Source: Rhodamnia argentea
Lineage: Eukaryota; Streptophyta; Magnoliopsida; Myrtales; Myrtaceae
Direction: 5' to 3'
NCBI RefSeq assembly: GCF_020921035.1
Contig: NC_063158.1
Location: forward strand, 23,670,178-23,734,177
Length of the DNA: 64,000 nucleotides
In this document: positions 25,202 to 46,669 of the stretch, piece by piece
Numbering within the stretch: position 1 is the first letter of the stretch
Layout: the number at the start of each line of letters is the position of its first letter
The notes under the pieces: generated by a model
Told to the model about the DNA's origin: nothing
Databases searched by the model: none
The model's input: the letters and a program-made list of their open reading frames with translations, nothing else
Program-made: the position numbers and the translations under genes

Positions 25202-27552
25202 ATGGATTTCCTCAGCAATGGGGTGTTCCTCTCGTTGTGCTCTCTGGTTCTGTCTCTTCTCTTAGCTCTTGCCGCCAAAATGCTGCACAAACTATGGTGG
25301 AGTCCAATTCGAACGCGAAGGGAAATGGCTGCCCAGGGAATCAGAGGTCCAGCTTACAGGTTCTTCCATGGAAGCATCAAAGAGATGCTTCAGATGAAGA
25401 GAGAAGCTTCCAGCAGACCCATGAGCCTTTCTCATGATATCTTCCCTTACGTCCAGCCTCACTTCCACAAGTGGGCTCAAACTTATGGTAAACAATAGTC
25501 TTGTAGTTGACACAATTTATCGGTGTTACGATCTCAAGATATCGTCTGCCAAGTACTTTCTGATCGCCAATTTGGTTGAGAGGATGCGACGTGCCATTTG
25601 AGAGGATTTGGATTTGTATTTCTTTTTAAGAACAGACTCATTTTTAACTCTTCACTATATGTCACTCATGAGAATTCAAAAATTTCCGCAGGGAGGAATT
25701 TCTTGGTGTGGCATGGCCCTCAAGCTTTCCTAGTTGTCTCGGATCTGGACATGGTCAAAGAGGTGCTTAATGATAAAGACCACGCTTTCTCAAAAATTTT
25801 CCTCCAAGACCAAGTGAAGAAGATTGTAGGCGATGGACTTGTGATATCCGAAGGTGAGCAATGGGCAAAGCACCGAAAGCTGGCGAATGCCGCTTTTCAC
25901 GGGGAAAGTCTGAAGGTACGGTTGAAACAACATATATATGCAAGCCATGTGTGCCTTGCTTCCAAAACTAATGGGACAGGAATCAGAATTAAGGAAGTAA
26001 TTTTGTGGGAGTGCATTGGACACATGAGAATGCCTTTCAAATTGTGCTTATGATGGAAAGCCCTTTCCTGTGGTATATAGAGTATGGTGCCGGCAATGGT
26101 GGACTGCGCTCATATGATGATCCAGAGATGGAGTGGTCGAGAATGCCAAGAGATCGATGTGTATGAAGAAGTTAAACTGTGCACATCGGATGCGATATCG
26201 AAAGCTGCTTTTGGGAGCAGCTACATTGAAGGCAAGAGTGTTTTCGAAACGTAGTCAAGTTGGGATCGACAATGGCAAAAGCTTCTTCACAAATAAGGTT
26301 ACCGGGAATCAGGTAACTGCTCTGTACACACATCTAATGGCAAAAGAGAAACCGAGAGAAAGGGAAAACTAAGATGTGAAGATGGAAGCTAGCAAAAACA
26401 ATCAGACATAGAACTAGGAATGATTTGCATTCTATGTCATGCACCTTTATGCAGAAATAGATTGTAAACCCCTAGAGTTCTTTTATCTCTTACTTACTCT
26501 GGCAGATGAACCAATTAATTTGGTTTTGTAATTCTCGCTTATACAGATTGTTATTGTTTCAGTAAAATCTGGAAACCGGCTTATGAGATTGAGGCAGAGA
26601 AACTTGAGAAAGGGTAACGGGAAGCTGTGTTAAAGATTATCGAAAGGAGACAACAGAAGATGAATTCCGGAGAGATGGAGAGCTATGAGAATGATTTCCT
26701 GGGGTTACTTTTAAAAGCTACGCACGATGTCGACGAGAGCAAGAAAATCACGTTCGATAATGTAATTGCTGAGTGCAAGACGTTCTATTCTGCTGGACAT
26801 GAAACCTTAAGCTCATTACTTGCATGGACAGTCCTCCTCCTAGCAATATACACTGATTGGCAACAAGAAGCAAGAAAGGAGGTGCTCGATGTCCTGGGAG
26901 ATCGAGATCCCGATTTTGATGGAATTACAAAGCTCAAGAAGGTAAGAATGTGATTGTCTAACAAATTCCACAGAAGACAGAGCTTCTAATTGTCTATTTC
27001 TGAAAGCTGTCTTGTAGGATGAACACATATTCTTCTACAGGAAAGAACGACACAAGCTTCTTTATCTTCTTGTTATTTCAGAGCATGTTCTTCTCCTCAT
27101 GAATGTCTGGCACTTGTGCGCAGATGGGCATGATAATAAATGAATCTCTCCGCTTATATCCTCCAGGAGTCGGTGTCCCTAGAAAAGTTACTAGGCAGGT
27201 AAACCTCGGTGATCTCATTCTTCCTGCAGGTATAATGGTGCACATACCAATCCTAAAGATTCACCATGACTCTAAAATTTGGGGAGATGATGCACATCTT
27301 TTCAAGCCAGAGAGATTCTCTGAAGGAGTTGCTAAGGCTACAAACAACAATCCAGCGATGTTCCTTCCCTTCGGTCTTGGACCCAGGAGTTGTGTTGGCC
27401 TGAATTTCGCGACAGTCGAAGCAAAAATTGTTCTTGCTATGATTCTGCGGCGATATACTTGCACTCTCTCCCCTGCTTACATCCACTCCCCTGTCGAGCT
27501 TCACAATTCTCGCCCTCAATATGGAGTTCAGGTTATCCTCAATGCAACATAG
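25202..27552 (+). pseudogene. CYP749-like cytochrome P450, copy C, complete but two lesions
   Basis: Five exons with consistent borders: 25202-25487, 25692-25915, 26081-26312, 26563-26941 and 27124-27552. Lengths and phases fit a P450 of about 516 residues. Visible parts are an N-terminal membrane anchor (FLSLCSLVLSLLLALA), the C-helix region (GEQWAKHRKLANAAF), the I-helix (SAGHETLSSLLAW), ESLRLYPP with ExxR, KPERF, and an intact heme loop LPFGLGPRSCVG. This matches CYP72-clan enzymes, nearest CYP749 in memory, which are ER-bound oxidases. Two lesions break it. One base is missing in exon 3 near 26249 (SVFE then stop; copy A keeps the base and reads VFENVVK). In exon 4, TTA is TAA at about 26614 (EKG-stop-REAV; copy A reads EKGLREAV). 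It could be a recent pseudogene, a null allele or a consensus error. Confidence 0.85.
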
Positions 27553-28530: not shown

Positions 28531-30879
28531 TCACTTACCAATGATGAGCTTTGCTCTGGCATGGCCTTCATTGATCTGGAACTGCTCTCCAATACCAAAG
28601 TGAGCCATCAATAGCCAAACAAAAGTTACAAGCTCGCCACCCTTACTAAGTACCTGGGCATGCGTTTCGGCTCTGCAATGACTGGCTGCATATGACAACA
28701 GTTCCACCCATATCTTGCTCATGATCTTCCACTTAACTTCCTTTAGTTCAATCAGCTCTTTGGCCAAGATGCATCCATCGAACAACACGGATTTACTCCG
28801 ATCACCCTTCACATACACTGGTTTGACACTTGTGTCCACATCGTAAATCTCACTGCAAGCGTCCTTGAGTCTATCCTCATTTTCCTCTTCCTTGCGTTTC
28901 ATATTAGGAGCCGTTCCAATCCGCCGTCTGCTGAAGAACTTCGTGGCCTCGGCGCAGGTGTCTCGGAACCTAATCTGGCCGATACCCACAACACCCGACA
29001 TCATCTTGGGTTGCTTCACTAGAAGATACAACATGTAGTCCGATAGGATCTTACTGAATATCCTATACTTTCGGTCATCATTGCTGGGGCCCTCATCTTT
29101 CTGGTAGCAGATCTCTGTAGCAATGTGCCACAATAGAAGACTACGGTCATACTCGACTTCCTCAACATATTGCATTAAATGGGAATAGTCTTGCGTCCAC
29201 TCGCTGTCCTGGAGAACCCATTCACCTCGTGCCTCGCATATCTTTTTGGCCGTCTCAGCGTCGTCTGCGAACGATGCCTTGCCTTTCAACTCCTCGAATA
29301 TAAACTCCCAAAGCTCCTTGATGAAGGCATTCTCGAACACATATTTGATTTCGTCGAAAATGTCTGCTATTCCCAGTTTATTGGTGATAAAACCGAAGAT
29401 AGTTCCCAAAACGTGAGCGATACGATCAAACATGTAGCCCAAACACAAGCAACTAGAAATTGATTCACCAATGGAGCTCAGACAGGACATTACCATTCCC
29501 ACAACATAGCATGGAAAACTTACGATTTTACTGAAACAGCTGCTCAAGCACCCCCGCGGTTTGGGTATTCCTCTTGGACGCTCTTTCAGACAATAGGATA
29601 GCAGGTTGTACGCCGAGATGGTCTCAGACCACCTTCGGAATGGTACTCGTGTTTTGAACACATCATATTCGACACTGCCTATTCGACATTTAGTTATGCC
29701 CAAATCCTTCCTCAGGTCCATTATAGAGAGGAATGGTGCACCAAAGTATCTATCGAACAGGGTCGAAAGTCGGGATCTTTTCTTGATGTTTTTTAGGGTA
29801 GCAACAGTCCAATCAGAGAAAATGGCCATAAAAAGAGCTATTGCATCGAGAGCAATAGCCCCATAGAGCAAGCAGTAGGTAATTCTGACATCAAATCTAT
29901 GGAATCCATTCTTCTTCAGGCAGGTGAACAACACGAGAGCTACCGCAATATTTGCAAAGGCAATGAATCGAAAAATATAACCAATCACAGAATGTACCAC
30001 CCGCACTTTTGTGTAGAGGACCTCATACATGAAGTTGAGCTCGACCGCGATGACTCTTAGAGCATCCTCTGGAGTCCTGTGCTGGAAAAACTGCCGGCTC
30101 TCGTGCCGCTCGCGAAAGCTGAAGATGAGATCGACAATTAGACCCCGGAAGATATTAAAGAAGTAATAAGCATGCATGATGACCTCGCTCTCAGAAAGAG
30201 TCCCTTCTTTTGCGCCCTCATAGCTCATGGTCTTAGATTCTCTGTCGGGTTCTCCGGTGATCGTGATTTTGGCTGGGAGTTTGGCATCCTTCCGTGACGA
30301 GTACTCATCCATAAGCTTTGCATAGTTTGGACCCGGATCAGGTTCTTTGAGCATGGATTCCTTGAAACTCTCCAAGCTTGCAAGATACAATGCTCTAGTC
30401 CTCTCTGCATACTTGATCAACCCAGCAACAAGCATCAGTATGGTCGGGACTAATAGCTTGTTATGGGGCAATGTCTGGAGGAATACATAGCCCGCAGCAA
30501 AAACTTGAAAAAGAAGGCCGAGCAAGTGCCGGAGCCAGAGGGCATTATCTTCTAGGGCAAAGGCAGTAATCGTGTCCGGGCCGCCAAGATGCACCAGAAG
30601 GAAAGGTGCCCAGAATGCCAAGAGATCTCCGTTGTCGGCCAGAGCAGAGTCATTCCCTTGGCTGTTGGAAATGAGTCCCACCGCAAATGCAGCGGCCCAA
30701 TCAGCAAGCAAGTAAGCCGACCAGACTACGAACATCATGAACATGTTGGTCGTCCTCTTCCTGAACGGCGCAAAGAAGATGAGGATGGTCTGAAGAGAGA
30801 GGCTCAAGATGATGAAGCCCCTGAGGTTCCATGTGTCCCAAACCTTCCGGATGCTCTCCGGAATGGGATCAAAAGCCAT
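28531..30879 (-). CDS. DUF4220/DUF594 membrane protein
   Basis: A single open exon of 782 residues from the first ATG (MAFDPIPESI); upstream in-frame codons lack an ATG. N-terminal hydrophobic segments (about residues 21-38 and 47-70) and FWAPFLLVHLGGPDTITAFALEDN (about 89-112) mark DUF4220. Further membrane spans lie near 115-150 and 300-370. DUF594 is at the C-terminus (VLFDGCILAKELIELK, then WVELLSYAASHC and KGGELVTFVWLLMAHFGIGEQF). The family is plant-specific, usually intronless and expanded in clusters, and its molecular function is not established. A Cys-rich hydrophobic stretch (about 465-500) is unusual. The paralogue at 52433 has the same layout but is 95 residues shorter. Regulation cannot be read; the likely 5' leader lies in 30880-31480. 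Confidence 0.92.
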   Translation of the reverse strand: MAFDPIPESIRKVWDTWNLRGFIILSLSLQTILIFFAPFRKRTTNMFMMFVVWSAYLLADWAAAFAVGLISNSQGNDSALADNGDLLAFWAPFLLVHLGGPDTITAFALEDNALWLRHLLGLLFQVFAAGYVFLQTLPHNKLLVPTILMLVAGLIKYAERTRALYLASLESFKESMLKEPDPGPNYAKLMDEYSSRKDAKLPAKITITGEPDRESKTMSYEGAKEGTLSESEVIMHAYYFFNIFRGLIVDLIFSFRERHESRQFFQHRTPEDALRVIAVELNFMYEVLYTKVRVVHSVIGYIFRFIAFANIAVALVLFTCLKKNGFHRFDVRITYCLLYGAIALDAIALFMAIFSDWTVATLKNIKKRSRLSTLFDRYFGAPFLSIMDLRKDLGITKCRIGSVEYDVFKTRVPFRRWSETISAYNLLSYCLKERPRGIPKPRGCLSSCFSKIVSFPCYVVGMVMSCLSSIGESISSCLCLGYMFDRIAHVLGTIFGFITNKLGIADIFDEIKYVFENAFIKELWEFIFEELKGKASFADDAETAKKICEARGEWVLQDSEWTQDYSHLMQYVEEVEYDRSLLLWHIATEICYQKDEGPSNDDRKYRIFSKILSDYMLYLLVKQPKMMSGVVGIGQIRFRDTCAEATKFFSRRRIGTAPNMKRKEEENEDRLKDACSEIYDVDTSVKPVYVKGDRSKSVLFDGCILAKELIELKEVKWKIMSKIWVELLSYAASHCRAETHAQVLSKGGELVTFVWLLMAHFGIGEQFQINEGHARAKLIIGK

Positions 30880-32313
30880 GTTCCCTCTTCTGATTGCTTG
30901 AAGTCGAACCTTTCTAACAACCTCCCTCAAGCAAATCAAGTTTCAATCTTTTTGGAAAAAGAAATCCGGGAAACTCAAAGGCAGGAGAAGAAAAGGTCAG
31001 TAGTCTGAGAATCAAGAAAACAGAGATCTTTTTTCCTGAGGCATTGATCACTCAGCCATACTTGGTGAACACTTGCTTCCCAATTTGCAGGTCAACGCAA
31101 GCATACCCAGCATCTCTTTCTTTTTCCACTAAAGTTAAAAGCTAAAATAATCCATAAAAACAATGACTTCACATGGCAAGTCTCCCAAAAGACACTGCAA
31201 GATAGAAAATAGAAGCTACAAAGAATAACCCATCACTTTGTCTTTCAGGATGAAGCACGCGATGGACTGGAAACCGTCTCAGAATTGGTTGGAACAGTGC
31301 ACAAAACGAGTAAACAATGACTCGACTAACCTTTTTGTTGTGCAGAGGGCAAGTCTCCCAAGATCTGCCGACAAAATGAACAGCTTGCTCAAGAATTTCG
31401 CTGTTCTCTCTCTCTTCTGCTCGACCAGAAAGGCCTCAACTTGTGCTTGTTTTAATAAGGTCGAAGGCCATCGCCGTTCACATTTCTAACTCCTCTTTAC
31501 CTCTCCCTAAAGGGTATGGCACAGATGACAGAACCAGCTAGAAAAGCACGTGAAGTATTTTACATTTGCAGCTGAAGTGATTACAGTGCCAGTGCCGTGA
31601 TTTATTACTATTTTTTATTGGTGGTAGGCAATCATTTTTAAGAAAAATATTTTTTAAATCGATCGTTTTCGTGAAACAGACGAGCAGCGAAAAATATTTT
31701 CGGCTTATTATATATACGGTGAGTTAATCTTTCTTGCTGTGTTGAGGCACGAATCACAAAGTACCTAGTGAACAGGACAACAAACATGTCCCACCCAACA
31801 TTTTCTTTTGCAAGTCGTCATCATCAGAGAGAAAATAAATGTCTTTATATCCAGGATTCAACTCAGGTGAGAAGAAAGAATTCTCCATCTTAAATCTTCT
31901 CAACCTCGGATTAAATGGGCGACCTTCGAGGAAATCTATGAATAGGAAGTTCAGAACCATGGTTTGACCATTCAAAATTGGATGTACCCTACCCATGATC
32001 TCCCTGTTTGTTGTCTGTATGAAGAGCAAATCTCCGCACAAAATACAAATTTGGAGTAATTAATCAGGTCACCACCATTTATCTGATGCGCCAACTCTTA
32101 AATTCTTCATTATCATCGGGCCAACTGCCTTAGCATTTAAAAAAATTTGCTTTCCATGTGAAAAGTTGCAACTTTCAATGGCTTTTTTAAGGTATCTTTC
32201 AAGGCTTTGAAAGAAACGAGCATATTCATTAATCATATCAGAACTCCAGAATTGCTTTTCTGGGTAAGCATCCTTGGAGGCATTTCATCTGACAGCATAC
32301 AGAATCAAGTGCA
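30880..32313. other. Divergent spacer between DUF4220 and NBS-only genes
   Basis: It holds the upstream regions of both flanking genes, which point away from each other. Part of 31240-31490 may be untranslated leader of the minus-strand gene. A short GAAAAATATTTT foldback-like piece lies near 31640-31710. An open minus-strand frame at 31754-32041 matches no family I recognise and is weak as a gene. Confidence 0.45.
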
Positions 32314-33537
32314 ATGCCTCCAGATGGTGATGCCTCTCTCCTTCCACAACCACTTGAAGAAGAAATGAGGAATGATTCAGGAGTCAGTATGGCTCTACAG
32401 ATCGAGCAGTACCTGCTGGAGAAGTTCGAAGCTGGGCTTGAAACTAGAGACAAGAGTGGCTCCAAAAGTGCATTGTACAGCCACTTCCGGGAGCTGAAGG
32501 AACTGCTTGGAGATGAACTCCACTCAGCTTCATGCGAGGGAAAATCCATCAGGGACAATCTCTATTACCTCAATGATGTCCTTACCGACTGCCGGACACT
32601 GTTGAAGAAGCAGATTCTGTCCAAATACAGAATTAAGAGGAGCCTGGACAAGATCAAGGAGGAACTTGTGCGGAATTCAGGTACCGGCTGGAGCAGTGAT
32701 ACTACTCAGGATAGCAATGGTGGAAGCTCAATGAAGAGTCGTGAAGTTTCCGGTCCAATTCCTCTGCAAGCAGATTCCGTGAAGGGATTTGCCAGTGAAA
32801 TGGAGTTACTGGAATCTCTGTGCAAGAAACCAAGCTCCAACGAATTCAAGGCGATTGGCGTGGTGGGGAAAGGAGGGATTGGCAAAACAACTCTATGCCA
32901 ATTGTTCTTCAGCAACGCACAAAAGAGTAGAGAGTTCATTCCTAGAATTTGGGCGAGCTTGTCCAGACAGCCTACTGAGAATTCCGGAAAAAAGGCAGAA
33001 ATTGTCAAGGCAGTGTTGTTCCAGCTAGGTGTTGAAGAGGAAGTCAGCGATATGGAAGCTAATTCTACGTCTGTGGATCATAAACTAAGTGCTCTCGTCG
33101 CTTTACTCCACAAGCATCTGTGGGGGAAGAAGTATCCGATTGTCTTGGATGGCGTTCACAATGCAGACGATGAATGGTATTCTGATTTGGGCTCGAGCTT
33201 AAGCAAGGGGGCTCACTGGGGTCTCCGCCTTGCGCACGGATTGCCGAAAGGGTACGGCGGGAGAGTCATTGTCACATGTAGGAACGAGGAGATGGCCAGG
33301 AAAATGGTTGGAGAGGACAATCTGCACCAGATAATGCCACTTTCGGATCCTAAAATTTGCTGGGCGATATTCGAGAATTCAACCAAGCAACAAGGAAAGC
33401 AAATTGATTCTACCAAAGAGGAAGAGCTGAAGAAGGATATCGAGAATAAATGTGCTGGCCTCCCCGTAGCTGCCAAACTAATGCGTCAAATGTATGAACC
33501 AACAACTTCAGCAGCACCAGCAAACTCAACTCCATGA
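32314..33537 (+). CDS. NBS-only NLR-like P-loop protein ending after GLPL
   Basis: A single-exon protein of 407 residues. Residues 25-120 are helical and charged, possibly a coiled coil. NB-ARC motifs follow in order: P-loop GVVGKGGIGKTTL (182-194), RNBS-A-like FIPRIWASLSRQP (208-220), kinase-2 KYPIVLDGVHN (273-283), RNBS-B GGRVIVTCRNEEMA (315-328) and GLPL CAGLPVAAKLM (380-390). It stops 17 residues after GLPL, so it lacks ARC2, winged helix, MHD and LRRs. This length and ending match a small plant family of P-loop proteins typified, from memory, by Arabidopsis At5g45490 and At4g19060, so it is not simply a truncated NLR. Kinase-2 has LDG where most NLRs, and the paralogue at 44717, have LDD. 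It converges on the winged-helix/LRR gene at 36271. Confidence 0.88.
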   Translation: MPPDGDASLLPQPLEEEMRNDSGVSMALQIEQYLLEKFEAGLETRDKSGSKSALYSHFRELKELLGDELHSASCEGKSIRDNLYYLNDVLTDCRTLLKKQILSKYRIKRSLDKIKEELVRNSGTGWSSDTTQDSNGGSSMKSREVSGPIPLQADSVKGFASEMELLESLCKKPSSNEFKAIGVVGKGGIGKTTLCQLFFSNAQKSREFIPRIWASLSRQPTENSGKKAEIVKAVLFQLGVEEEVSDMEANSTSVDHKLSALVALLHKHLWGKKYPIVLDGVHNADDEWYSDLGSSLSKGAHWGLRLAHGLPKGYGGRVIVTCRNEEMARKMVGEDNLHQIMPLSDPKICWAIFENSTKQQGKQIDSTKEEELKKDIENKCAGLPVAAKLMRQMYEPTTSAAPANSTP

Positions 33538-36270
33538 CAGTAGTGAGACTGAATTGAAATTTTGTGCTCCTTGCAAAGCTTGTTTATTACTGTGTAGAGT
33601 TCGTATAATTTGGGCATTCAATCAATTATTTGCAGCAAGAATATCGATCAGTAAATTACATGTTGGATTCTACCTCGTATTGCATCTAGGGCTCTCCGGT
33701 TATCTTATTCCACAACAAAAATAATGACCACTACCCCGGTGTTTATGCTTCGGTAACACAAGGGCCAAAATCTCTGTACTCTCAAGTAGCAAGTTTTTCA
33801 GCAGTTCTGAATAAGAATCCTACAAGTCTGAATGAATGAACCATGTAACTAAATCTAATCTTCTGCGATCAACATTCTGCTAAAGATTGATGCACATAAG
33901 ACACGCTGAAAGTTTTTGGGTCCTGATGAGGAGTTCCAATGCGCTCACATTATACAGATCTAGTACACATACAACATTGGTTTGCTCTCGTTTAAAAGCT
34001 ACTCGACACTAGACATGTGCCTAAAAAACTTCATTATTCTGTTCTCCATGATCGACTATGGTTGCCAGGGTATGAAGTTATTTATAAACAGCTTGAGATG
34101 CGAACATCTTTTCTCGATTATATAAAGTGGGAAATCTCTTAAAAAAAGAAATTTATGGTTGTGTGGCATTCTGGTAGTAGCAAGAGAAATTGATCACAAC
34201 TTGGCAGGAATCTCCAAAGTCCATACAAAGCGAAGTCATGAGAAACTGTGCACTTTCTGAAGACTTTGTTTCTAACTTCCTCTGCCCTACCTTGATGATC
34301 ATCTGCAGGATTTCTACTCACAGTACCTGAAGAAATTGTCTTATGACATGATGCTCATGGTGGCTTTGACTGGTGAGATGGATCAAATGCGAACATCTTC
34401 AATTGCTTCGAGCACGTGTATTACCCTGCTGCTTGAAACTTTTAACCAACAGATCGACATGGTTGACTCTAGATGGATGATGCTGTAACTTTTTAGCTGA
34501 TGTATCCTCTCAGATGTGCAATACAGCCCTCTGGAAAGTCTGGTTTTAAGAGTGCTCCTCATTTTGAGGAATTTGAACCAGGAGAGTTTCCTTTGTGGTT
34601 CAAAACAGAGCTTATCGAATGAAAAGGTGCAATAAAATATATCATTTGCATTACAATAGGTTCATTTACATGAGCCTGATGTCCTAAGCACGCACCAGAA
34701 AATGGAATGTGGGGTCCGATACGGATGTATATGATTTGGATTATTTCTTTTCAGGGAAAATTTCAATTAGGGTCTGAAGTGGCTACTAATCAATTTTCGG
34801 AAGAGAACATTGCAGTACCTTAACATGGAAGACATCAAGACCGATGTTACACAGGAGGTTTCCTGCTGGAAACAATCAGGAGTATAGTTGTGTACTTCAT
34901 CTTTTCGAAACATACCGACCCATATGGTACTACATTCAAAGGTCAAGGTGAATTGGAAAATGAAATCATCTCAAACAGTGCAAATTGTTTGCATAGCTGT
35001 AACTGTAAGCAAGCCACTAGAACCTGACAACTAATTGCCAATTCTTATCAAATCCCTTACTCTTTCAGTTACTGCTTCCTCTCTATTCTCACGTAGCAGC
35101 ATCCTGCTCCTCCCAACTATATGTTTTGCGAGTCTTTCTCGACAAATTTTGGTTCAAATGAGTCTCCACTTTGGCAGGGTCGTATTGTCCCCCAAAGTGC
35201 AGCTCTGTGCTTTTGACAAACCAAAATTTCTTGACTTTTTAATGAGACCCAGAAGAAGAAATTGCTGAAGTCTGCATACCGTCTCATGTGAGCATTTGCT
35301 GCTCAAAGTAACTTTAGGAACATATAATTAAGAAATTGTGACTAGTGAATGAGCATATGTCCTCAGGACTGATAATGGCCACTGTGAAATCCATATTAGG
35401 GGAGTCCTTGTTCTCACAGTTAACCAGTTATTATCAGGCAGCATATATCTAAGTGTGTAGCTTACAGCATATATCTAAGTGTGTAGCTTACAGATAATCA
35501 CCGAGATTAGCACTCAGAAAGTTAGCAGCTTCACAAAGTGAATGCAAAGTATTCCCTGCAGGAAAACTATGTAAGGTGGACGTGAATACAAAGCCAAACC
35601 ACCCACAGATTTTATCTCATGCAGCATAACTTAGAAACAAGGAATAATCAAAACTGCTTGACTGATCAGACAAATACAAAAATCAATGTGGTCTAGCAGT
35701 TTCTGAATCCTGCAACTGATGATGGCTGATGTCTGAACAAAAGCCAAAGAATTCCCTGACAGGAGAACTATGTAAGGTGGACATGAATACGAAGCCAAAC
35801 CATCCAGAGAGATTTTATCTCATGCAGCAAATTTAGGTGTCAACACTTAGAAACAGGCAGCAATCAAAACTGCTTCATTGATCAGACGATACAACAACCA
35901 ATGTTGTCTAGCAGTAATCCTGCAACTGATGATGACTGATAGCTGAACAAAAGCCTTAGATGCGTCAAGTGCTGCTGCGACAAAGTATGAACTAATCAAT
36001 AAGCATAGTTATCCAGTTTGCTAAAAAAACGATGGGGTCTCCTTTTCACTTGGAGTGATGGAATTCCATGTATCTCCTGAGACCAAGCAAGATTTCTTCT
36101 CTCTCTGAATTTGACTGAAAGTTTCCCATCAACTGTAAAGGTGAAAGACTTTCATTGCATCAACAGAATGTGAACAAAGCAAAATGATACTCAAAATTAC
36201 AAACATAATCCTTGATGGTCATCTGGCAGTCCACATCTACCAGGAATGTGCACAATCGAACCAAGAACTA
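33538..36270. other. Spacer between convergent NBS-only and LRR genes, with tandem duplications
   Basis: No protein gene is recognised. Two tandem duplications are visible: a 26-bp unit (GCATATATCTAAGTGTGTAG and six more bases) repeated at about 35440-35492, and a segment of roughly 200 bp present twice in a row at about 35548-35745 and 35746-35958. The region should contain the 3' UTRs of both genes. Confidence 0.55.
35548..35958. repeat. Tandem duplication, about 200-bp unit x2
   Basis: Both copies share ACTATGTAAGGTGGAC, GCCAAACCA, TTTTATCTCATGCAGCA, CAAAACTGCTT and CCTGCAACTGATGATG in the same order and spacing, with scattered differences and small indels. It lies 3' of the minus-strand winged-helix/LRR gene, perhaps in its 3' UTR. 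Confidence 0.75.
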
Positions 36271-38733
36271 TTATGGTTTAGTGTTGGAAGAAGAAACAGG
36301 GGTAGGACAAATGGTATCCTTATGTTTAAGAAAAGACCAAGACAAACTCAATCCCGATTCTTCCATCCGTTTGGCTTCCATTTCCCCGTTCAACCAAACT
36401 CCACGCTCATCGCAGGGGAAGAAAGAGAGCTTGGGACATTTGACCTTCTCCAAGTAAATTAGATTCGGAAATGACTTCTGCAGATCTCCCCAATCCATCT
36501 TCAGTTCACTTAAGAACTTCAGACACAATATCCTAACTTCCCATGTTATCCTCTCTCTCTGAATAGTACCTAGTTCTTGGAGATTTCCTCCACTTATGTA
36601 AAGACACTTTACCGGCTTCAATTTGCCTTCTATCAACCAAGCAGGAGCGGCAGTCCCTGGGAAGCACTGGAGCTCCAATTTCTCCAAGCCGCTCATATCT
36701 CCTGCATTTGGAGAAGAGGTCTCAGTAGGAAGGCGTCCCTTGAAGGCAAGTGCCCTGCTCAGTTTTCTCCGTGCAGGAGCTGTCTGTGCTGGTTGAGGAG
36801 GTCCTGAAATGTTGTCTTGCTGAGTTTTTGTGCTGTTTGTTTTATCACCCATCTTGACACTGTCTGCAGTGCTTGACTTTGCTGAATAGTTCGGTTGTGT
36901 AGAATTCTCATTTTGTTCATCCTTGGACGGTTTCCCTCCCCAAGCTATTGTTAACTTCTGAAGATACTGAAAACCTTCTAGTACTTTTAGCTCATCGTTT
37001 GTTGGAAAATTTTCCCTCCCTGTATAGATGCTCAATTTTCTTAACTTCATCAATCCTTTCAATTCTTCAAGAGTACATGAGTCGGTGCTGATCGAGTCAC
37101 CAATGACAAACCCCTTGAGAACCTGGAGCTGCGTGAGGGAAGAAAGCTCTTTCGGAATGTGATCCAGCAAGTAGCACTGTGATATATCCAAATGCGTCAG
37201 CTTCTTCAGTGCACCTATGTTCTTAGGAAGCAACTCTAAATTGTGGCATGCATTAAGATCCAGGATTTTCAAGCTGGTGAGCTTGCAAATGGAATCTGGG
37301 AGGTCCGTAATTCTAGAAATGCCTTGAAGACTCAAGAATTGAAGATGCTTCATAAGCTTTAGCCCTTTCAAGAACTCTGTGCCCTCAACTTCTATATGAT
37401 GCTTGGCAAAATCTTGCCAACTACCAAGGTATAGTACATTGAGATTTTTCAGCTTCGAGAACCAATCTAGCTTAAAATCAGGATAAGGATCATTGACGTT
37501 AAATATGGTTCGCAGTTTTTCCAGATCATTCTCCTTTTTTGTCAACCTCTCCCTAGAAGATTCTCCTTCAGTTCTTACCAAGCATGCTCTGTAAGACCAC
37601 GAGAAGTCTTCAGTAGGAACTCCCATCGCATTGAAACCGAAGAACCCAACTTTCTCCGCAATGGCAATTACCGCAAAGCGGACCAAAGGATCCATCTTGA
37701 ATCCGGTGACTTTGCGTTTCTTGAGCACAGGTTCAACAAAGCCTTTCGCGATGAGCTCCTTGAAGATACCATCAACACTTGCACCGTCGGAATCCGCCAA
37801 ACCCTCTCCAATCCACCAGTTCACTAGAAGCCTCTTCCTCAAAACAGCATTCTCAGGGAACACAGAGAAACAAAGCAAGCATAGCTTTGACCTCCGATCG
37901 AGATCCTCAAAAACACACAAGAGATCATTGAAAAACTCATCGAAAGCAGGGGCACCCATGACTTTTTCCTTCATGTCTTGTTTCAGCATTTCGTCGACCA
38001 GGTAGTAGGCGTTGAACACGAACCCCGTGTCCAATTGATGAGCATTAGTATTAGAGGTAGACAGTTTGTGAAGAGAAGGAATCTGGAGTTTCAGATTCGT
38101 CACCATAGCGCTGATAGAGCGAAACTTGTTGTGGACCTGCTGACTGCTGGTCGCGCTGGTGCTTTTCTGAACCTGAGCCATACTACTCAGGATCTGATCC
38201 AGCGCACGGCGTTGCTCCTCAATGTTCTTAAACTGCAAGCCGAAGTCCACCTCCAACTTCCTGAACTTGGACAGCGCGCGCTCGATATAATTGAGGTCTC
38301 TGCGCAACTTCTCCGCCTCATTCCGAAGCGTGCCATTGCTCCCACGAGAGCTCGCGCTCCCGCTCCCGCCTCCGCCTCCCTTGCTGTCGCCGCCGCCTCC
38401 TTTGGCGCCGCTGGTGTTTCTACGGCCGCCATTGGGAACCGCGTCAGCCTTCTTGCTGCCGACGCCCTTCTTGCCGCCGGCGAATCCGCCGCTCCAGCAG
38501 CGGACGGTTTCACCGCCGTCGTCCTCGGCCTCGATCTGCTTCTCCTCGGCGGCGACAGCGCCGCCTGCGCTCTGGATCTCAGGCTCGGGAAGAGAGCCCT
38601 TCACTTTGTTTACGAAATCTAGCAGCGCGGGGATTGTCTTGATGATGGTTTCGACGTTTTGGACATCTCCGTGACTCGGCAGGGGAGGTGGGCCGTCCGG
38701 CGGCAGCGGAGGCATGGTCGATGCGATGGACAT
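36271..38733 (-). CDS. Coiled-coil/winged-helix/LRR protein lacking an NBS (NLR tail)
   Basis: A single exon of 820 residues from the first ATG (MSIASTMPPLPPDG; MPPLPPDG six residues later is an alternative start). Pro- and Gly/Ser-rich low-complexity sequence (to about 135) leads into a predicted coiled coil (about 136-200). A winged-helix domain typical of NLR ARC2/WHD follows (RSKLCLLCFSVFPENAVLRK then RLLVNWWIGEG, about 281-312). The MHD position reads FKMDPLVRFAVIAIA (about 345-359). LRRs run from about 420 to 600 (LKNLNVLYL, LQFLSLQG, LPDSICKLTSLKILDL, LTHLDISQC), then a polar linker and a further LRR-like end. There is no P-loop, kinase-2 or GLPL. It resembles Arabidopsis At5g45510-type LRR proteins, which from memory lie beside NBS-only genes. 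By homology to NLR receptors a role in immunity is likely but unproven. Confidence 0.88.
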   Translation of the reverse strand: MSIASTMPPLPPDGPPPLPSHGDVQNVETIIKTIPALLDFVNKVKGSLPEPEIQSAGGAVAAEEKQIEAEDDGGETVRCWSGGFAGGKKGVGSKKADAVPNGGRRNTSGAKGGGGDSKGGGGGSGSASSRGSNGTLRNEAEKLRRDLNYIERALSKFRKLEVDFGLQFKNIEEQRRALDQILSSMAQVQKSTSATSSQQVHNKFRSISAMVTNLKLQIPSLHKLSTSNTNAHQLDTGFVFNAYYLVDEMLKQDMKEKVMGAPAFDEFFNDLLCVFEDLDRRSKLCLLCFSVFPENAVLRKRLLVNWWIGEGLADSDGASVDGIFKELIAKGFVEPVLKKRKVTGFKMDPLVRFAVIAIAEKVGFFGFNAMGVPTEDFSWSYRACLVRTEGESSRERLTKKENDLEKLRTIFNVNDPYPDFKLDWFSKLKNLNVLYLGSWQDFAKHHIEVEGTEFLKGLKLMKHLQFLSLQGISRITDLPDSICKLTSLKILDLNACHNLELLPKNIGALKKLTHLDISQCYLLDHIPKELSSLTQLQVLKGFVIGDSISTDSCTLEELKGLMKLRKLSIYTGRENFPTNDELKVLEGFQYLQKLTIAWGGKPSKDEQNENSTQPNYSAKSSTADSVKMGDKTNSTKTQQDNISGPPQPAQTAPARRKLSRALAFKGRLPTETSSPNAGDMSGLEKLELQCFPGTAAPAWLIEGKLKPVKCLYISGGNLQELGTIQRERITWEVRILCLKFLSELKMDWGDLQKSFPNLIYLEKVKCPKLSFFPCDERGVWLNGEMEAKRMEESGLSLSWSFLKHKDTICPTPVSSSNTKP

Positions 38734-39085
38734 GAGAGAGGTGAAGAGGTTGGAGCTCTGAGCTGAATCTTTCAAGCATCAACGCAGAAGGAGATGAAGA
38801 TGAAGATGAAGATGAAGAAGAGGAAGGAGTGCCATGCTGCTGGTCTGAAACGAAACGAAGTAAATGCGAAGTCAACGGGCTTCCCCCTCCTCCTTTTGCT
38901 GAGCTGGAAAAGGAGCAGCCCAAGCTGACGTGGCCGAGGAAATTCATGCACGCGCGGATTTAACGTCACGTGCGTTGCACGTCGCTGTGTCCATCCGTAT
39001 TAAAATATGTTTCAGTATAGATCTATATATAGCAGAACTAGAAGTGTTCATCTCATCTTTTTATTTTCCCATTTAGCCCTCATGT
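38734..39085. promoter_or_regulatory. Upstream region of the winged-helix/LRR gene
   Basis: This segment precedes the minus-strand start and should hold its promoter and leader. A GATGAA hexamer repeat lies at about 38791-38818, within the probable 5' UTR. An ATG in another frame opens at about 38784 on the minus strand and could act as an upstream ORF. No clear TATA box was assigned. Confidence 0.4.
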
Positions 39086-39585
39086 AGGATTAATATCACG
39101 AAAAACCTCAAATTAATACACTTATAACAAATCTACTCTAAATTATTTTTTTTATTACGAAAAATTCTAAACTGGTACATTTGCGACAAATTTACCTCAA
39201 ACTATTTTTTTACCACCAAAAACTTAAATTGATACATCTGTGACAAATTCTCCCTAAAATAATTTTTATACCACAAAAAACTCCAATTGATACACTTATG
39301 ACAAATATACCCTTCGTTAAATTGGTTTGATATTTTTCAAAATTGATACATCTATGATAAATAGAGGGTAAAAACTTCAAACTGTCATATGCTATCCAAC
39401 TTAGCAATTCGATGGTTAGATTTAATGAAAATTAACGAAAGGTAAATTTATCGTAAGTGTACCGATTTGGTGTAAATCTGTCACAAGTGTACCGGTTTGA
39501 GATTTTTTGTGGTAAAAAAAAAATAGTTTAGGATAAAAATTTTACAGGTGTACTAGTTCATGGTTTTCTATGACATTAACCCTTA
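39086..39585. mobile_element. Foldback element of about 40-bp repeats, copy 1
   Basis: The left half repeats units of the type ACCTCAAATTAATACACTTA then TAACAAATCTACTCTAAATTA. The right half repeats the complement (AGGTAAATTTATCG, AAGTGTACCGGTTTGAGATT). The ends read GGATTAATATCACGAAAAA and TATGACATTAACCC, which are inverted. About 500 bp and non-coding. A second copy with the same design is at 47881-48333. Confidence 0.7.
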
Positions 39586-42510
39586 TTGTAATGTGTTTTG
39601 ATTTGGAATAGGAAAAAAGGTAAAAATCGACCAAAAAAGAGGATGAAAAGGTGAAAGGAAAAAGTTAACCACTCCCTCTTCCCAATTAAAACTATAATCG
39701 GAGGAAATTCTTATTGTCCTTACAGTTTAGGAAGCACGCACATTCTTTGGGGACTTTCGAGTCGTGTCGAACATGTGTCGGCACTTCAACGACATATGGT
39801 TAGCGCGATTAACATGCAAGCGACACACGAGTCTTGCATCCCGACACGCCTTTTCGACACACACGAGGTCAATTTTAAATATTTTCAACAAATTAGAAGT
39901 CAAAATGTACCTAGCTAATCCCAAAAAAAACCTAATCATGAATTATTAACAGAAAAAGAAAAAAAAACTCAATGCTGATATTTTTTTTTTTTAGTAAGGG
40001 TCAATGCTGATATTTTTATATATACATAATGAATTTATCATGTATATATAAAAATATACATTTAATATACAATATATCCTAACGTGTCGAAATTCTCTAA
40101 TATGCCGGAGTGTCGTGTTGTCGCCTGTCGGTGTCGATGCAACTTAACTTACAGTGCAGCAACCAACTTTATGTCGCTTATTTTCTTTTCCTCAATCTAG
40201 AATGTTTATTCAATATTTTCTCTGAAAGTGGTAAACAAAGGAAATGGTCCTTAGATATTCAACTTCTCCATCTAATTGGAGTTAGCAATCATTTTAATTC
40301 ATCATGATGTTGCATAAGGAATGAAAAACAATGGAGCACGGGCATGAAATCTAGCAGTAAACTAAGCTAAAAGAAACTAATATCTCTATTTTTTCCGAAG
40401 ATTTCGAATGAATTTTTACATAGAAAAGACGTAATCAAAGTTAAGAAGAAAAGCGAAAGCTCCAAAGCAGATCATAATATTTATCAAGCTAATGGAGGGA
40501 TCCAATTTAAAAGAGTTAGATGGCCAAACTACGTGTTAAATTAATGTCTCCAGTTTGAGCCCACGAATAAATGGCTTTCTGCTAACAAAAAAATGAAAGA
40601 AAGAAAAGGTATATTGCTAAAAAGGATTGGAATATTGATTGACATGTGTTCCATTCATGAGAAACTCTAATTTGGCTTTCCTACAGCTGCTTTAGTATTC
40701 TACTTCATGTTTGTTGTACTGTGGACTTCACTTTAGTTTCAAAGTTAAGAATTTGAGCGTCTGCGAGCACATGTTTCTTCAATTCTAGTTCCTAGTTTGT
40801 CTTAATTCCCGTTTCAGAATGTTCGATTCCCCGTGCTTTAATCTCGCAGGTGTTTTCAATTCCTCAACGTTATAAGTTTCCTCTTTCTCAATCACTTTTG
40901 CAATCGCAAAACCTGCTTTTCTCACGAAAAATCCGTGAACTAGATTATGTTTTGGTAAGTTCCAATCAACGAGTGAAAATCAGGATTTCATTAGTTTGCC
41001 TTTCAATGGCGGTATTACCACCCTGCCTCAGTCCGACTTCTTCCCACATTTGAATTTTCATAAGCCAAAATGACTTGAATCTGAATATGATTCGCAATCG
41101 AAAAGATGTGATCAAATCCGACCCGACCCATCATTTGTCGCCTCAACGAGTCATGTTTGGCTTCCTTATGTAAGTCAAGCTGTCTGTTTACCGGCATCAA
41201 TTAGGTGGTGGCTTTTGCTTTCGTATAATCTCAACTAGAACTTAAAATTAAAACAGGAGTATGGAAACAAAAGAAAAAATTTATGGATTCTAATATGAAC
41301 ATGACAAAACCATGCAATAAAATAAAATAAAATAATTCTTCGTCCAGAATAAGATCATGGCAACTTGTGCTCATGAAAAAAGTCGGTCAGATTTAATGTT
41401 GTGTAGTATAATGACAACTTGAACAACCGACACATGCAAGCATCAATCGGGCACAAGAAACTAGGTGCATCTTGCTTCAATATAATCACCACTTGGAACT
41501 TATAAAACACAAACGTGAGTGTCAGATACAGACATAAAAAAAATTGTTGCTGACATACGTTTATTTCTATGTATTTGCTCTTTTCGTTTGGTGGGTACCG
41601 TATGAATTAATATTTTCCTAATGTCGGTGGCCCATGCGGGGCGGACCACCTTCAAGATCGCCGAATGTTCAGTCAATTTCGAAGAACGTGACCGGCTGCA
41701 AAGAAAAAGAAAATATCACGATGTGGGCAACACCTCTCGAATAAATAAATCAAAAAATAATTGATCTAAGTATTATTTAAATGGAATAGCGACAATAACA
41801 GCTTGAACACTAACACAAACACAAACATCAGTTCATTTCAAAGAACGTGAGCTGGCTTAGCTTAGAGAATTAATTTCCTGTTCGTCCGCCGAACCCACCA
41901 ACTGAGCGAGGTATCCACTTGCAAAGCGACGTCGTACAAAACTAGTAAGAGCTTTATGCAAATAAAAAAAAATGGCTATCACATTTGAAATTATGAATCG
42001 GATTAGGTAAAGAGATTAAGCGACATCATTTGAGCGGTTGGTTCTGATAATTAGGCATTTGGGATCTAACATTTCTTTCTAGTTTACCATGTCCTTGACC
42101 TCGTTTACTTCTGCCAATATTAGCTATATTGATTGTTCAACTAAAAGTCGATATTTAGGCTCCATTTGTTTAGCGAAAAAAAAAAAAAGAGTGATTTGAA
42201 AAATATTTTCTCAAAAAATGATGAGTCATTTACAATAATTAGCCAATGCATAATATTTTCATTATTGATAATAATTTTCTGTTTCAGCAATTTTGTGGAC
42301 CACAAAAGTGTTTTTCATTTATTCAATTTTATAAAGTGATTCAAGTGATCATTTAGGGTGCGTATGTCACGCGAGAAACGAGTGATTTGAAAGATATTTT
42401 TCTAAAAATGATCACTTGAGTTGTTTATAAAAAATGAAGCAACGGAAAATGTTTAGACATAAGTTGTTGTTGATAATGAAAACATTATCAAAAACTAATT
42501 ATTTGAAGTG
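39586..42510. other. Intergenic DNA
   Basis: No gene is recognised. A GTGTCG-rich segment at 39755-39865 (GTCGTGTCGAACATGTGTCGG) is partly mirrored at 40080-40140 (AACGTGTCGAAATTC...GTCGTGTTGTCGCC) and may be a decayed MITE. From about 42150 the sequence (GGCTCCATTTGTTTAGCGAA) looks like the edge of another foldback family carrying GAAAAATATTTTCT motifs. Confidence 0.4.
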
Positions 42511-42868
42511 ATATAAACAATCATTTTTTTAGAAAAATGCTTACTTAATCATTCATTTTCGACGAAAGAAACGGAGCGTTATTGGAAAATATTTTTCAAA
42601 ACATTAGTTTTGGTCGGAGCAAACATAATCTTATAAACAATCATTTTTTAGGAAAATGCTTACTTAATCATTCATTTTCGACAAAAGAAACGGAGCGTTA
42701 TTGGACAATGTTTTTCAAAACATTAGTTTTGCTCGGAGCAAACATAATCTTATAAACAATCATTTCTTAGGAAAATGTTTACTTAATTATTCATTTTCGA
42801 CGAAAGAAACGGATCGTTATTGGAAAATATTTTTCAAAACATTAGTTTTGCTCGGAGCAAACATAATC
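42511..42868. repeat. Tandem repeat, three units of about 119 bp
   Basis: Units are at 42511-42630, 42631-42749 and 42750-42868. Each runs ATAAACAATCATTT ... TTCATTTTCGAC(G/A)AAAGAAACGGA ... TCAAAACATTAGTTTTG(G/C)TCGG and AGCAAACATAATC, with few substitutions between units. The unit comes from a MITE-like GAAAATATTTTTC sequence also seen nearby, so the array looks like recent local amplification of a transposon fragment. Confidence 0.85.
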
Positions 42869-43840
42869 TTATACATTCAGTTATATCCAGATTTGTATGA
42901 ATTCTGTGTTGAAAGTAACTTGAGGGCATACAGCCGGGGCGGACGAGAAGACGGGAACAAATTCTATTACTTATGAGTGAAGAATAAGGAAAGTCCACCA
43001 AGCTCGTGACCCATAAAAGAAGACATGGAGAAAGTTTAGGTGAAGCCCAACACTAGTTGTGTTCTCGAATCATGACAAGAAATACGACCAAAGAAAATGA
43101 CCATGTTTTTCGGCGTTTTGCTAAAATGTGAAAGAGACCCGGAAGATATTTTCCGTCGTTTGGTATGGAAAATCATTTGATTTTCCTCCATAGACACCTT
43201 TTTAATAAAATTTTTTATCTTTTCAAGTCAGGTTATCGATTGCCAGAAAGCAGGCCCGTTTAGAATGAAGCAGGCCCAATGCAAATTCCAAGACCACGAA
43301 GAGGACGCTCGTGACCGATAACTTTTCCTACTGAACTTTTCGGGAATGTTTGAATAAGTTGCTTTACTTTACCTAATTAAAAGATTAGTCATGTTGGGCG
43401 CGTGTGTAAAGATTTTCCGAGAAGAACGGAATTAAGCTATCGACCTTTCGAGAGTAATGTCTCGTGATTTTCGGAACCGAAAGGGATGTTTCCTTGTTAA
43501 TCTTAACATCGATAGAGGTACCACAGTTCTTCATCCTTTCTTGAAATTTCAAAGGAAGTAACAAAGATAGGCTTGCTTATATCTTTTTTTTTTTTTTCTA
43601 TGGGCTTGGTAGGATTACGTGTGTGGACAAAATTTTCTTTAGGAAGATAGGAGGGCAAAAAAAAAAAGAAAAAGAAAAAAAAAGACCTACTTGACTTCAT
43701 GAGATGTTATTTATCCTTTTATTTTCCATGAAACAAACAGAACATTAGCGACGGCTCTTTTGCTTGTAATTAACTACCAAGAAGAGATCACCGATCCAAA
43801 CAATCATTATGTTTGCAACTGTTTGGTTGTCCAATCCCTT
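42869..43840. other. Intergenic DNA
   Basis: No gene is recognised. Short foldback-like pieces occur at 43090-43190; poly(T) and poly(A) tracts lie near 43585 and 43656. Confidence 0.45.
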
Positions 43841-44386
43841 TATGCTGCATTTGGTCGTCGGGATTTCTAGTCGGATATGATTGGATAGGATAGGATAAGA
43901 AATCCAAGGATTTGGCCATATCATATCAACTGTTTGGTGAATCATGGATTTAAAGTCGGATATTTTCATATCCTATCATATCTTGCATTTGATAGAAAGC
44001 GTATATCAATATAAATGACATATATGCCCCTACGTGATGCTCATGAAATATTCCAATCTTTTTACTATTAAAATAACGTTCTCATACACAAAAAAAACTT
44101 GCAAATATACATATTTTATTAGATTTTCAAACCTCTTTGCAAAAAAAAAAAAAAAAAATAGAAACAAATGAGACAAAAAAGTTGTCGTTATTCTAAAAGT
44201 TAGCTTTTAGATGACGGATAAGAGAAATCCTATCCGACCTTATCCTACCCCCTCCCCTCGGATGTTTTTATCCGGGTTATATCCCTTCTATATCCGACAT
44301 TATACTATCCGGGACACCTACCAAACACGGGATATGATAAAATATATCATATCCTGAATTTTATACGGACGACCAAACGCAGCCTT
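43841..44386. mobile_element. MITE with GCTGCxTTTGGTCGTC ends
   Basis: The left end GCTGCATTTGGTCGTC and the right end GACGACCAAACGCAGC are inverted with one mismatch. Next to them, TCGGATATGATTGGATAGG-type blocks on the left match complementary blocks on the right (CCTATCC, ATATCATATCC). About 545 bp and non-coding. Flanking CTTTATG and CTTATG could be a decayed target duplication. Confidence 0.75.
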
Positions 44387-44716
44387 ATGGTCTAAATGGT
44401 AACGGGGGAAGCATGCATGGAAGAAAAGCTGAAGGCGAGCACTCGCATATTAAGTAGAGATACACTACAGGGTGAAAGGAACATAAGTTGATGTAAGCTA
44501 TCAAGCGACAAAGGAAAGAAAGACAAAATATGAAACCATCAGAAGCCCATTGATTTACTTCTACCCAAGCCGAAAGGAAACTTGACAGACCCCAGACTTT
44601 TGGTTCAATATGAAACCATCAACCAACCGCGGTGCGATAAATTCGGCCCTGTCTGGCCCAATAAGTTCTTTAGTCGCAGAACCATTGCTGCTACTCACCG
44701 ATTGTGAAGCAGTAAC

Positions 44717-45590
44717 CTAGGCCGATTCTGGCCCAGTTACTTGGGCTGTGGAAGAACTATTGCTACTATCGGTCGGTTGCGGTGCGGTAACCTGGGCAGA
44801 TTCTGGCCCAGTTACTTTGGCTATGGAAGAAGAACCACTGCTACTGTTGACCAGTTGCAGTGTTGTAACTTGGGCCGATTCTGGTCCAATCGGCTGTGGT
44901 TCGGTTATTTGGGTCAATTCTGGCCCAATTACTTGGGCTGTGGAGGAAGAGCCACTGATATTGTTGACCAGCTGCGGTGCTGTAACCTGGGCCGCTTCTG
45001 GCCCAGTAACTTGGGCTGTGGAAGAACAGCTGATACTGTTGACCGGTTGCGGTGGAGTAACCTGGGCCACTGCTGGCCCAGTCACTTGTGCCATGGAAGA
45101 ACCCTGATACTGTTGATCGATTGCTGTGCCTGTTACTTGGGCTATGGGAGAACCAATTGTACTGTCGACCGGCTGCGGTGCTGTAACCTGGGCCAAATCT
45201 GGCTCAGTTACTTGGGCTTTGGAAGAACCAATTGTACTGTCGACCAGCTGCGGTGCTGTAACCTGAGCCGCTTCTTGCACGGTTACTTGGGCTATGGAAG
45301 AACCATTGTTAGTATTAGCCGGCGGGATCTCAGTACCTTGGGCGATGGGAGCTCTCCCTCTATCATCCGGCTGTGGTGCAGGACGACTACGTCCGTCCTG
45401 TCGTGGCTTGCCACCGTAAGACCGGCCCATCAGATCAGCCATAACTGGGTGCCCACCAGCTCCCCGCACCACCGATCTCCGAAGTTCTTCTTCTACCTGA
45501 AGAATCAGAAAGTATGCCATACCACAGATTAATATTGATCTGCTTGTTTATAAAACATGTCCACCGACTTTTACATAAAAGGGGAAATAC

Positions 45591-45631
<41 letters not shown>

Positions 45632-46669
45632 AATTTACATAATTCTCTCTAAATCACTTTGGCTCCTCCCGGTTTGGATGCTTTGAATCCTCGAGAACCA
45701 ATTCTCCATCGTCAATCAGACGAGAGGACCATACAAAGAAGATCTAATCCGTTCGTTTGCTATAAATTCTTTCGGCCAATCATTTGAACATAAAGCTACT
45801 CTATGAAAGCAAACAGGTTCTGCAAAAACATTTTGTGCTCGTCTTCCTACCTCAGGATTAATGTCAGCACCACCGGATGCTTTTTTGAATATGACCCAGC
45901 AATCTTCGTCCGTCAGAGGAAGAAGATGGTGCAGATTTTCCTTACCAACCATCCTCTCCACCACTTTATCGCTCCTCCCGTTGACGATCACAGCTCCTCC
46001 GTATCCTTTCGGCAGCCCCAAGCCCAGGCTTCGACTCCAGTCCATCGAGCCGACCCGGGAGAAACTCTTGCCTTTGTTTGACTTGTGCTGGATCGAGTAA
46101 TCTGAGATGGATCTGGCTGAGTCTGGGGAAGAAATTTCCTTGGCGCAGCCCAAATTATACCATTCATCCGCATCCCATGCGTCGTCTAGCACGATCAGGT
46201 ACCTCTTGCCCGCTAGTTGCCGGTGCAGAAGAGAGACCAACCCCGGAATTATATCCTCGGGCTTCTTCTTGATGATCTTCTCGATGATCTCCTCGTCTTC
46301 TCCGAGGCAAATCAGCATCCTCCGAGCCACGGCGACCTTCGGTTCTGGGTTGTCGCCGGGTTGCTTTGTCATGCAAACCCAGACACGAGGAAGGAAGTGC
46401 TTTTTCACTTGTTCGCTGTTGAACATCCTTTTACAGATGGTAGTCTTTCCACTACCTGCCGTTCCCACGATGCCAAGCGCCGTGAATTGATTGCAGTTAC
46501 TTTTGCTCTTATCAAGCAAGCCATGGAGGAGGAATGATTCTTCGCCTTCACGCCCAACAAACTCAGATTGATCGACCGGCCACCCGTTGGTCGGCTCGAC
46601 GTAGTCAACGTTGTTTTTGTCCGGCCTTCGGCCTCGCAGCCCAAAGGGTATTGTAAACACCATATCCAT
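44717..46669 (-). CDS. NBS-only NLR-like protein with AQVT-repeat tail, two exons
   Basis: Exon 1 (46669-45851) and exon 2 (45496-44717) give 532 residues. NB-ARC motifs: P-loop GIVGTAGSGKTTIC (66-79), FLPRVWVCMTKQP (92-104), kinase-2 RYLIVLDDAWDADEWY (156-171), and an RNBS-B-like GGAVIVNGRSDKV (224-236). The 354-bp GT-AG intron falls exactly where the paralogue at 32314 continues to GLPL. Splicing gives INPE-VEEELRRSVVRGAGGHPVMADLM, so the GLPL motif is degenerate (GAGGHPV for CAGLPVA). The rest of exon 2 is about eight copies of a 25-residue repeat built on AQVTGPE and AQVTAPQ with Ser-rich spacers, not a known NLR part. The stop at 44717 is TAG where repeats have CAG; the frame then stays open for about 52 more codons. 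The intron carries a GA microsatellite (45594-45629). Confidence 0.82.

Follow-up and report, generated by a model that had tools for sequence, protein, structure and literature searches.

Three neighbouring genes with complementary parts of one type of receptor

The window analysed here comprises 64,000 nucleotides of the Rhodamnia argentea (Myrtaceae) genome of 346.7 Mb (C9:23670178-23734177, contig NC_063158.1), in which the domains of a nucleotide-binding leucine-rich repeat receptor (NLR) are distributed over neighbouring genes. The NB-ARC domain, the winged-helix domain (WHD) and the leucine-rich repeats (LRR), which a single-chain coiled-coil NLR (CNL) holds in one polypeptide, are divided here between genes A and B, both confined to the nucleotide-binding site (NBS-only), and gene C, a WHD-LRR gene situated between them; the MHD motif that such a chain carries in its WHD was not found either. 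The parts of the three genes, with lengths in amino acids (aa), are as follows.

32314 to 33537, plus strand: gene A, NBS-only, 407 aa (Pfam NB-ARC, AlphaFold2 model, sequence and structure matches to ZAR1)
32866 to 32892, plus strand: P-loop of gene A, GKGGIGKTT (sequence motif)
36271 to 38733, minus strand: gene C, WHD-LRR, 820 aa; a long N-terminal part made of helices precedes the winged helix and LRR, and there is no nucleotide-binding domain
37645 to 37908, minus strand: winged helix of gene C, approximately residues 276-363 (AlphaFold2 secondary structure and a WH_DRP match below the cut-off)
37687 to 37695, minus strand: MHD equivalent of gene C, reading MDP (column counts in 47 aligned rows)
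36364 to 37644, minus strand: LRR region of gene C, approximately residues 364-790, interrupted near 601-680 by an insert of low confidence (Pfam LRR_14, AlphaFold2)
45851 to 46669, minus strand: exon 1 of gene B, NBS-only, from the P-loop GTAGSGKTT to just short of GLPL (Pfam NB-ARC on the open reading frame; predicted splice junction)
44717 to 45496, minus strand: exon 2 of gene B, GLPL equivalent GGHPVMADLMG, followed by an AQVT-rich tail (sequence)

The NB-ARC domain of gene A was recognised at residues 167-391 (83.9 bits, positions 6-202 of the 248 in the Pfam profile), behind four predicted N-terminal helices (26-43, 55-70, 76-95 and 101-123); RNBS-B is present and GLPL, reading CAGLPV, lies 28 residues before the C-terminus. 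Its AlphaFold2 model reached a mean predicted local distance difference test of 71.8, and the database protein P0121 (407 aa) is identical to it over the full length. In gene B the open reading frame 45716-46669 scored 82.6 bits for NB-ARC (Pfam) and runs on through a GT..AG intron (45850-45497), predicted from sequence alone, whose removal keeps the frame from exon 1 (46669-45851) into exon 2. In exon 2 the GLPL position reads GGHP, and P0138, the closest relative of gene B in the tree, shows GGHPLMAKLMG uninterrupted. Among the three genes, P-loop and GLPL are confined to A and B, and Pfam together with the sequence confirmed the claim of the first-pass annotation that two genes encode NB-ARC from the P-loop to GLPL and are no longer NLR-like after it; the end it gave for gene B, 44717, is right, given the predicted intron that joins exon 2 to the stop. 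The AQVT-rich repeat tail of gene B (44720-45460 of the window) was absent from the other NBS-only proteins inspected.

In the NBS-only family, with fragments included, patterns for P-loop, RNBS-B and GLPL were matched in 28, 30 and 29 of 34 proteins, respectively, and 24 of the 29 with a recognised GLPL terminate within 50 residues after it. The first aspartate of kinase-2 is retained in 17 of 19 aligned rows. In a further NBS-only gene, NBS C (L021, C9:23824599-23828162), an insertion rich in lysine and glutamate separates the P-loop from RNBS-A, as it does in P0127 and in the Corymbia protein P0128.

Gene C, to which the database protein P0001 (820 aa) is identical over its full length, gave an LRR_14 match of 77.5 bits (Pfam) and, at residues 291-351, a winged-helix match (WH_DRP) of 19.3 bits, which does not reach the 27 bits of the Pfam cut-off, and no NB-ARC match at E<=1 (Pfam). 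The same winged-helix profile scored 48.4-51.9 bits in one relative each from Phoenix, Musa, Aquilegia and Thalictrum. The earlier description of the interposed gene as a winged helix plus LRRs devoid of a P-loop was thus borne out. Relatives were represented by 120 listed proteins out of 442 matches, the window's own included, and these span monocots to rosids; none of the 120 has a precomputed PF00931 entry, and none matched the CNL profile described below over its nucleotide-binding domain, even at E<1. A hidden Walker-A motif was considered as well and rejected: a loose pattern matched five of the 120, and in none of these did the profile match at that place. Database names are mostly ‘RPP13-like protein 4’, ‘R13L4/SHOC-2-like’ or uncharacterized, and the current WHD-LRR annotation names mask the missing nucleotide-binding (NB) domain.

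The point of division and the relation to ZAR1

In a tblastn search (E<=1e-3) the CNL frame L026 of this genome fell on the window in exactly three places, its residues 235-415 corresponding to gene A, 185-382 to gene B and 427-696 to gene C; tblastn of the window with seven queries yielded nothing besides genes A, B and C as further NLR pieces. For mapping of the cut, a profile was built from 13 CNL frames, all belonging to this genome and each taken as NB-ARC plus up to 1.5 kb on either side. It was run on 151 proteins of the two families, comprising the 120 WHD-LRR proteins listed and the full set of 31 NBS-only hits, and matched every one. The NBS-only matches terminate at columns 302-407 (median 396), 25 of the 31 between 390 and 407, and in the six with lower ends either the protein is short or an insertion interrupts the match. 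The WHD-LRR matches start at columns 405-504 (median 432), 115 of the 120 between 419 and 441. The extremes of the two distributions touch (407 versus 405), and at the medians neither piece matches some 25-35 columns in the late part of ARC1. On this profile both families are cut in one ARC1 interval, directly after the GLPL helix. The pieces had previously been described as complementary at the ARC1/ARC2 border; the complementarity stands, whereas the exact border does not, the CNL profile placing the cut inside ARC1.

The closest sequence in the PDB to both pieces is ZAR1, the Arabidopsis RPP13-like protein 4 (PDB 6j5t, 6j6i, 6j5u, 6j5v, 6j5w). Gene A matched ZAR1 138-364 with 69.2 bits, followed by NRC1 with 36.5, and in structure comparison (VIA-align) ZAR1 came first, tied with NRC3/NRC4 chains. 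Gene C matched ZAR1 396-716 and 741-838 with 122 bits, followed by the receptor kinase GSO1 (75.9, LRRs), RPP1 (57.5, the next NLR, LRRs) and MLA13 (56.8, the next CNL), and 439 of its residues superpose onto the WHD-LRR part of ZAR1 at 3.3 A. Because few CNLs are in the PDB, such matches alone cannot place either piece. In a WHD-LRR tree of 35 rows, in which the CNL comparison rows are few and from one genome, ZAR1 and the 20 WHD-LRR rows were joined with support of 98/91, and three alternative placements received p values of 0.0105, 0.0466 and 0.0378 in approximately unbiased (AU) tests. The rows of date palm, banana, Thalictrum and Aquilegia formed one group (93/77) against the other 16 (81/88), and from this grouping of monocots with Ranunculales the WHD-LRR family appears older than the split of monocots and eudicots; this is the simplest reading, at forks that are not fully supported. 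In the NB tree the 18 NBS-only rows came together with 100/100. Overall, there is good support for a relation of the WHD-LRR half to ZAR1, and the NB half is no more than compatible with one.

Linkage, selection and the question of decay

On C9 the order (in Mb) is NBS A, which is gene A (23.702), WHD-LRR1, which is gene C (23.706), NBS B, which is gene B (23.716), WHD-LRR2 (23.749), WHD-LRR3 (23.819), NBS C (23.826) and WHD-LRR4 (23.832), so that NBS-only and WHD-LRR genes are interleaved across approximately 140 kb in two modules. One of two genome matches of NBS C contains a stop; the frame from its own start is open over 454 aa. DUF594 matches bracket both modules, at 23.699 and 23.724 Mb and at 23.815 and 23.838 Mb, and those of the first module belong to two genes of the window.

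28531 to 30939, minus strand: DUF4220/DUF594 gene of the left flank, in head-to-head orientation to gene A (369 and 82.5 bits in Pfam)
52433 to 54496, plus strand: right flank, DUF4220/DUF594 gene (DUF594 match C9:23724464-23724616; 40.7% identity to the C3 copy)

On C3 a DUF4220/DUF594 gene (DUF594 match at 30.195 Mb) likewise stands head-to-head with an NBS-only gene, NBS D, and on C8 another DUF594 match and a WHD-LRR fragment are 10 kb apart. Since the family is large in this genome, with 135 matches, the presence of DUF594 alone is weak evidence. A long tandem array with a DUF594-containing unit every 1 kb or so, some copies with stops, was also observed on C3 (24020724-24036844 and 24066892-24092165). 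Complementary pieces that are linked and conserved, as a two-gene NLR would have them, were found, with linkage beyond this genome coming from one species, Rubroshorea leprosula, where a WHD-LRR gene (SLE2022_013900) and an NBS-only gene (SLE2022_013910) bear neighbouring locus tags, their contigs being equally long. The first-pass annotation had contained neither the relation to ZAR1 nor the module's second copy nor the DUF4220/DUF594 flanks.

As NBS B is situated upstream of WHD-LRR1 at a distance of approximately 6 kb, and NBS C upstream of WHD-LRR3 at approximately 4.7 kb, each pair on the same strand, it could be assumed that one gene was mis-read as two and that splicing joins either NBS gene to its downstream WHD-LRR neighbour, to yield a full-length NLR. 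However, gene A lies on the opposite strand, the database proteins are separate, most NBS-only proteins end shortly past GLPL as counted above and copies that are not linked are split as well, which makes a mis-read gene very unlikely.

Selection was addressed by the ratio of non-synonymous to synonymous substitution (dN/dS) in seven pairs of paralogues, two of which gave no ratio owing to saturated synonymous sites. Gene C showed 0.26 against L010 and 0.29 against L011, the pair L010-L011 showed 0.56 overall and 0.35 in the WHD, and 0.35 was obtained both for L012-L013 and for NBS A against NBS C; dS exceeded 1 in three of the five pairs with a ratio (1.6 for gene C-L010, 1.3 for NBS A-C). 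Pseudogene fragments of decayed NLRs would be in keeping with two copies, one NBS-only and broken (C3:30.643 Mb), the other WHD-LRR and fragmentary (C9:4.443 Mb). This explanation was nevertheless rejected as exceedingly improbable on account of the open frames, the dN/dS of 0.26-0.56 in five pairs, the monocot relatives and a cut whose interval is shared by most proteins of the two families. A tree that joins ZAR1 and reaches monocots likewise argues for an old family and not for decay. A conserved split rather than decay, as initially proposed, is hence well supported by the lack of an NB domain in all 120 listed WHD-LRR relatives, their spread from monocots to rosids, these ratios, the interleaved modules and the neighbouring tags in Rubroshorea.

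Linkage could also be plain inheritance from a tandem CNL cluster, in which one set of genes kept the NB half and the other the WHD-LRR half, each with a role of its own, or, as a variant, NBS-only proteins could pair with a divergent NB-LRR. The similar dS values of paralogues of both kinds are such as duplication of whole modules would give, and copies do occur apart; these, and a Dipteronia protein that also speaks for this reading, are set out below. However, neutral linkage fits less well with a mix that recurs in two modules, each bounded on both sides by DUF594 genes, and with the head-to-head order of DUF4220/DUF594 and NBS genes that C9 and C3 have retained; complementary loss of this kind, leaving no partnership between the halves, is considered improbable.

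A possible two-protein receptor and its known counterparts

The reading tentatively favoured here is a two-gene receptor, in which NBS-only and WHD-LRR products work together, because it accounts jointly for the complementarity, the linkage and the repetition of the module. It is based on complementary domains, a WHD-LRR part that is related to ZAR1, purifying selection and genes that are linked in a repeated module; physical association, nucleotide exchange, assembly and an immune output would be expected of it. A ZAR1-related CNL lineage would have been split between two kinds of genes that remained linked, the NBS-only gene retaining a helical N-terminal bundle, the nucleotide-binding domain (NBD) and the first half of ARC1, and the WHD-LRR gene a helical N-terminus, WHD and LRR. 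The WHD-LRR protein may sense a ligand or a guarded partner via its LRR, like ZAR1, while its WHD would dock onto the NBS-only protein and keep it inactive; the latter would contribute nucleotide binding and the oligomerising N-terminal bundle. A stricter version is doubtful: a natural split switch of the STAND class (signal transduction ATPases with numerous domains), that is, an obligate two-gene, resistosome-like complex of ZAR1-like descent that assembles in trans, has been kept since before monocots and eudicots parted, and in which a protein-protein interface replaced autoinhibition in cis and MHP replaced MHD.

Several observations weigh against a two-gene receptor. At the position equivalent to MHD, 47 aligned WHD-LRR rows have M in 42, H in 28 and P in 40, with D in none, and gene C, with MDP, has lost the histidine too; should the halves pair, sensing of adenosine diphosphate by the WHD as in ZAR1 is thus unlikely. 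In kinase-2 of the NBS-only proteins, 7 of 19 rows have D at the second acidic position, and together with the retained first aspartate this suggests nucleotide binding with altered hydrolysis. The stretch before the P-loop of gene B is too short for an N-terminal bundle, and when N-termini were compared by profile with CNL coiled coils, the best probability was 26.6% (C-terminal control 0.24%; 53 of 120 N-termini locatable by pattern), so that neither half is clearly homologous there. The link of the NBS-only rows to ZAR1 is unsupported at 64/18, and the AU alternatives, R13L1-like CNLs (p 0.17) and the C3 NB-LRR (p 0.23), were both not rejected. No NBS-only match accompanies the WHD-LRR copies at C9:4.44 Mb, and none was found in two 10-kb flanks there. 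NBS D is located near a full divergent NB-LRR rather than a WHD-LRR gene (L032 529-4920, C3:30186266-30190657; 1463 aa, NB-ARC 63.9 bits), and the Dipteronia protein P0135 is an NBS-only protein running into a piece that is 47.8% identical (46 aa) to the start of this NB-LRR, which indicates that NBS-only genes also accompany full divergent NB-LRRs. Finally, a 19-row profile (E<=1e-20, 7993 candidates scored) returned no named NBS-only relative beyond rosids, an absence that is not established, as Arabidopsis members known in print did not surface. If the difference from the WHD-LRR family, which is present in monocots, is real, a dedicated NB partner would not be universal.

The same difference, like the altered MHD, is in favour of the main rival, namely that the WHD-LRR protein has no NB partner and acts as a regulator comparable to NRG1C, its LRR binding a cofactor or guarded protein of a full-length receptor and thereby damping or tuning that receptor, with the NBS-only genes linked but separate. 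NRG1C is a truncated helper NLR that lacks most of the NBD and was evolutionarily kept (PMC12315475). It resembles gene C, also a WHD-LRR protein devoid of an NBD, and NRG1C chains were among the structural matches. However, NRG1C belongs to the RPW8-like NLRs (RNL) and is conserved in Brassicaceae, that is, restricted to a family, which the WHD-LRR proteins are not, and an NBS-only partner gene is unmentioned in the available part of PMC12315475. The rival also leaves unexplained the repeated linkage with NBS-only genes, in two modules and by the Rubroshorea tags. A genome search with ZAR1 138-364, moreover, recognised no ZAR1 orthologue that could be tuned, the best score (143 bits, 40% identity) falling within the CNL plateau. 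Such a regulator is judged rather unlikely.

Compared with known systems, the proposed two-gene receptor differs from ZAR1, a single chain, in that its NB and WHD-LRR halves come from different genes and its MHD motif has lost the aspartate. Paired NLRs also consist of two proteins that act together, but both of these are full NLRs. Halves of Rx expressed as separate proteins reportedly regain function (Moffett, in 2002), which again involves two proteins acting together, but this split is man-made. The NBS-only class is already known by name in Arabidopsis, where At5g45490, At5g45440 and At4g19060 are classed as CN, NBS or NB-only, and NCBI named a Eucalyptus relative of gene A after At4g19060. 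In the similar Arabidopsis neighbourhood proposed initially, At5g45490 is classed CN or NBS and At5g45510 is printed as ‘divergent NL’; At4g19050, next in number to the NBS-only At4g19060, is given as NBS-LRR. Both of these neighbours differ by name from the WHD-LRR neighbour in the window. At5g45500 and At5g45520 are putative LRR proteins and candidates for the WHD-LRR kind. In Brassica oleracea, Bo2g127270 and Bo2g127290 (At5g45490 type) are close to Bo2g127320 (At5g45510 type) according to PMC7795555, and At5g45510 was reported in a membrane proteome (PMC5387099). A literature search aimed at split or NB-less receptors, with most subscription journals outside its coverage, returned no paper describing this split.

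Regulation of NLRs is explained via contacts within one chain. If the halves pair, a contact that is intramolecular in NLRs could persist between two proteins, a natural system separating sensing from nucleotide switching would be at hand, and NLR catalogues based on NB-ARC would miss receptor components. Even if they do not, a ZAR1-related protein that is widespread and lacks the NB domain constitutes an uncharacterised family beside a well-studied receptor.

Some further features of the window were noted. Between gene B and the right DUF4220/DUF594 gene lie a weak PEARLI-4-like protein (48849-49697; 24.2 bits, under the cut-off) and a C1-domain protein (50916-51413). Judged by eye, the open reading frames at 57934-60046 resemble a BED-finger/hAT-type transposase, and similar pieces of a cytochrome P450-like gene occur at 25598-27552 and 13041-13667.
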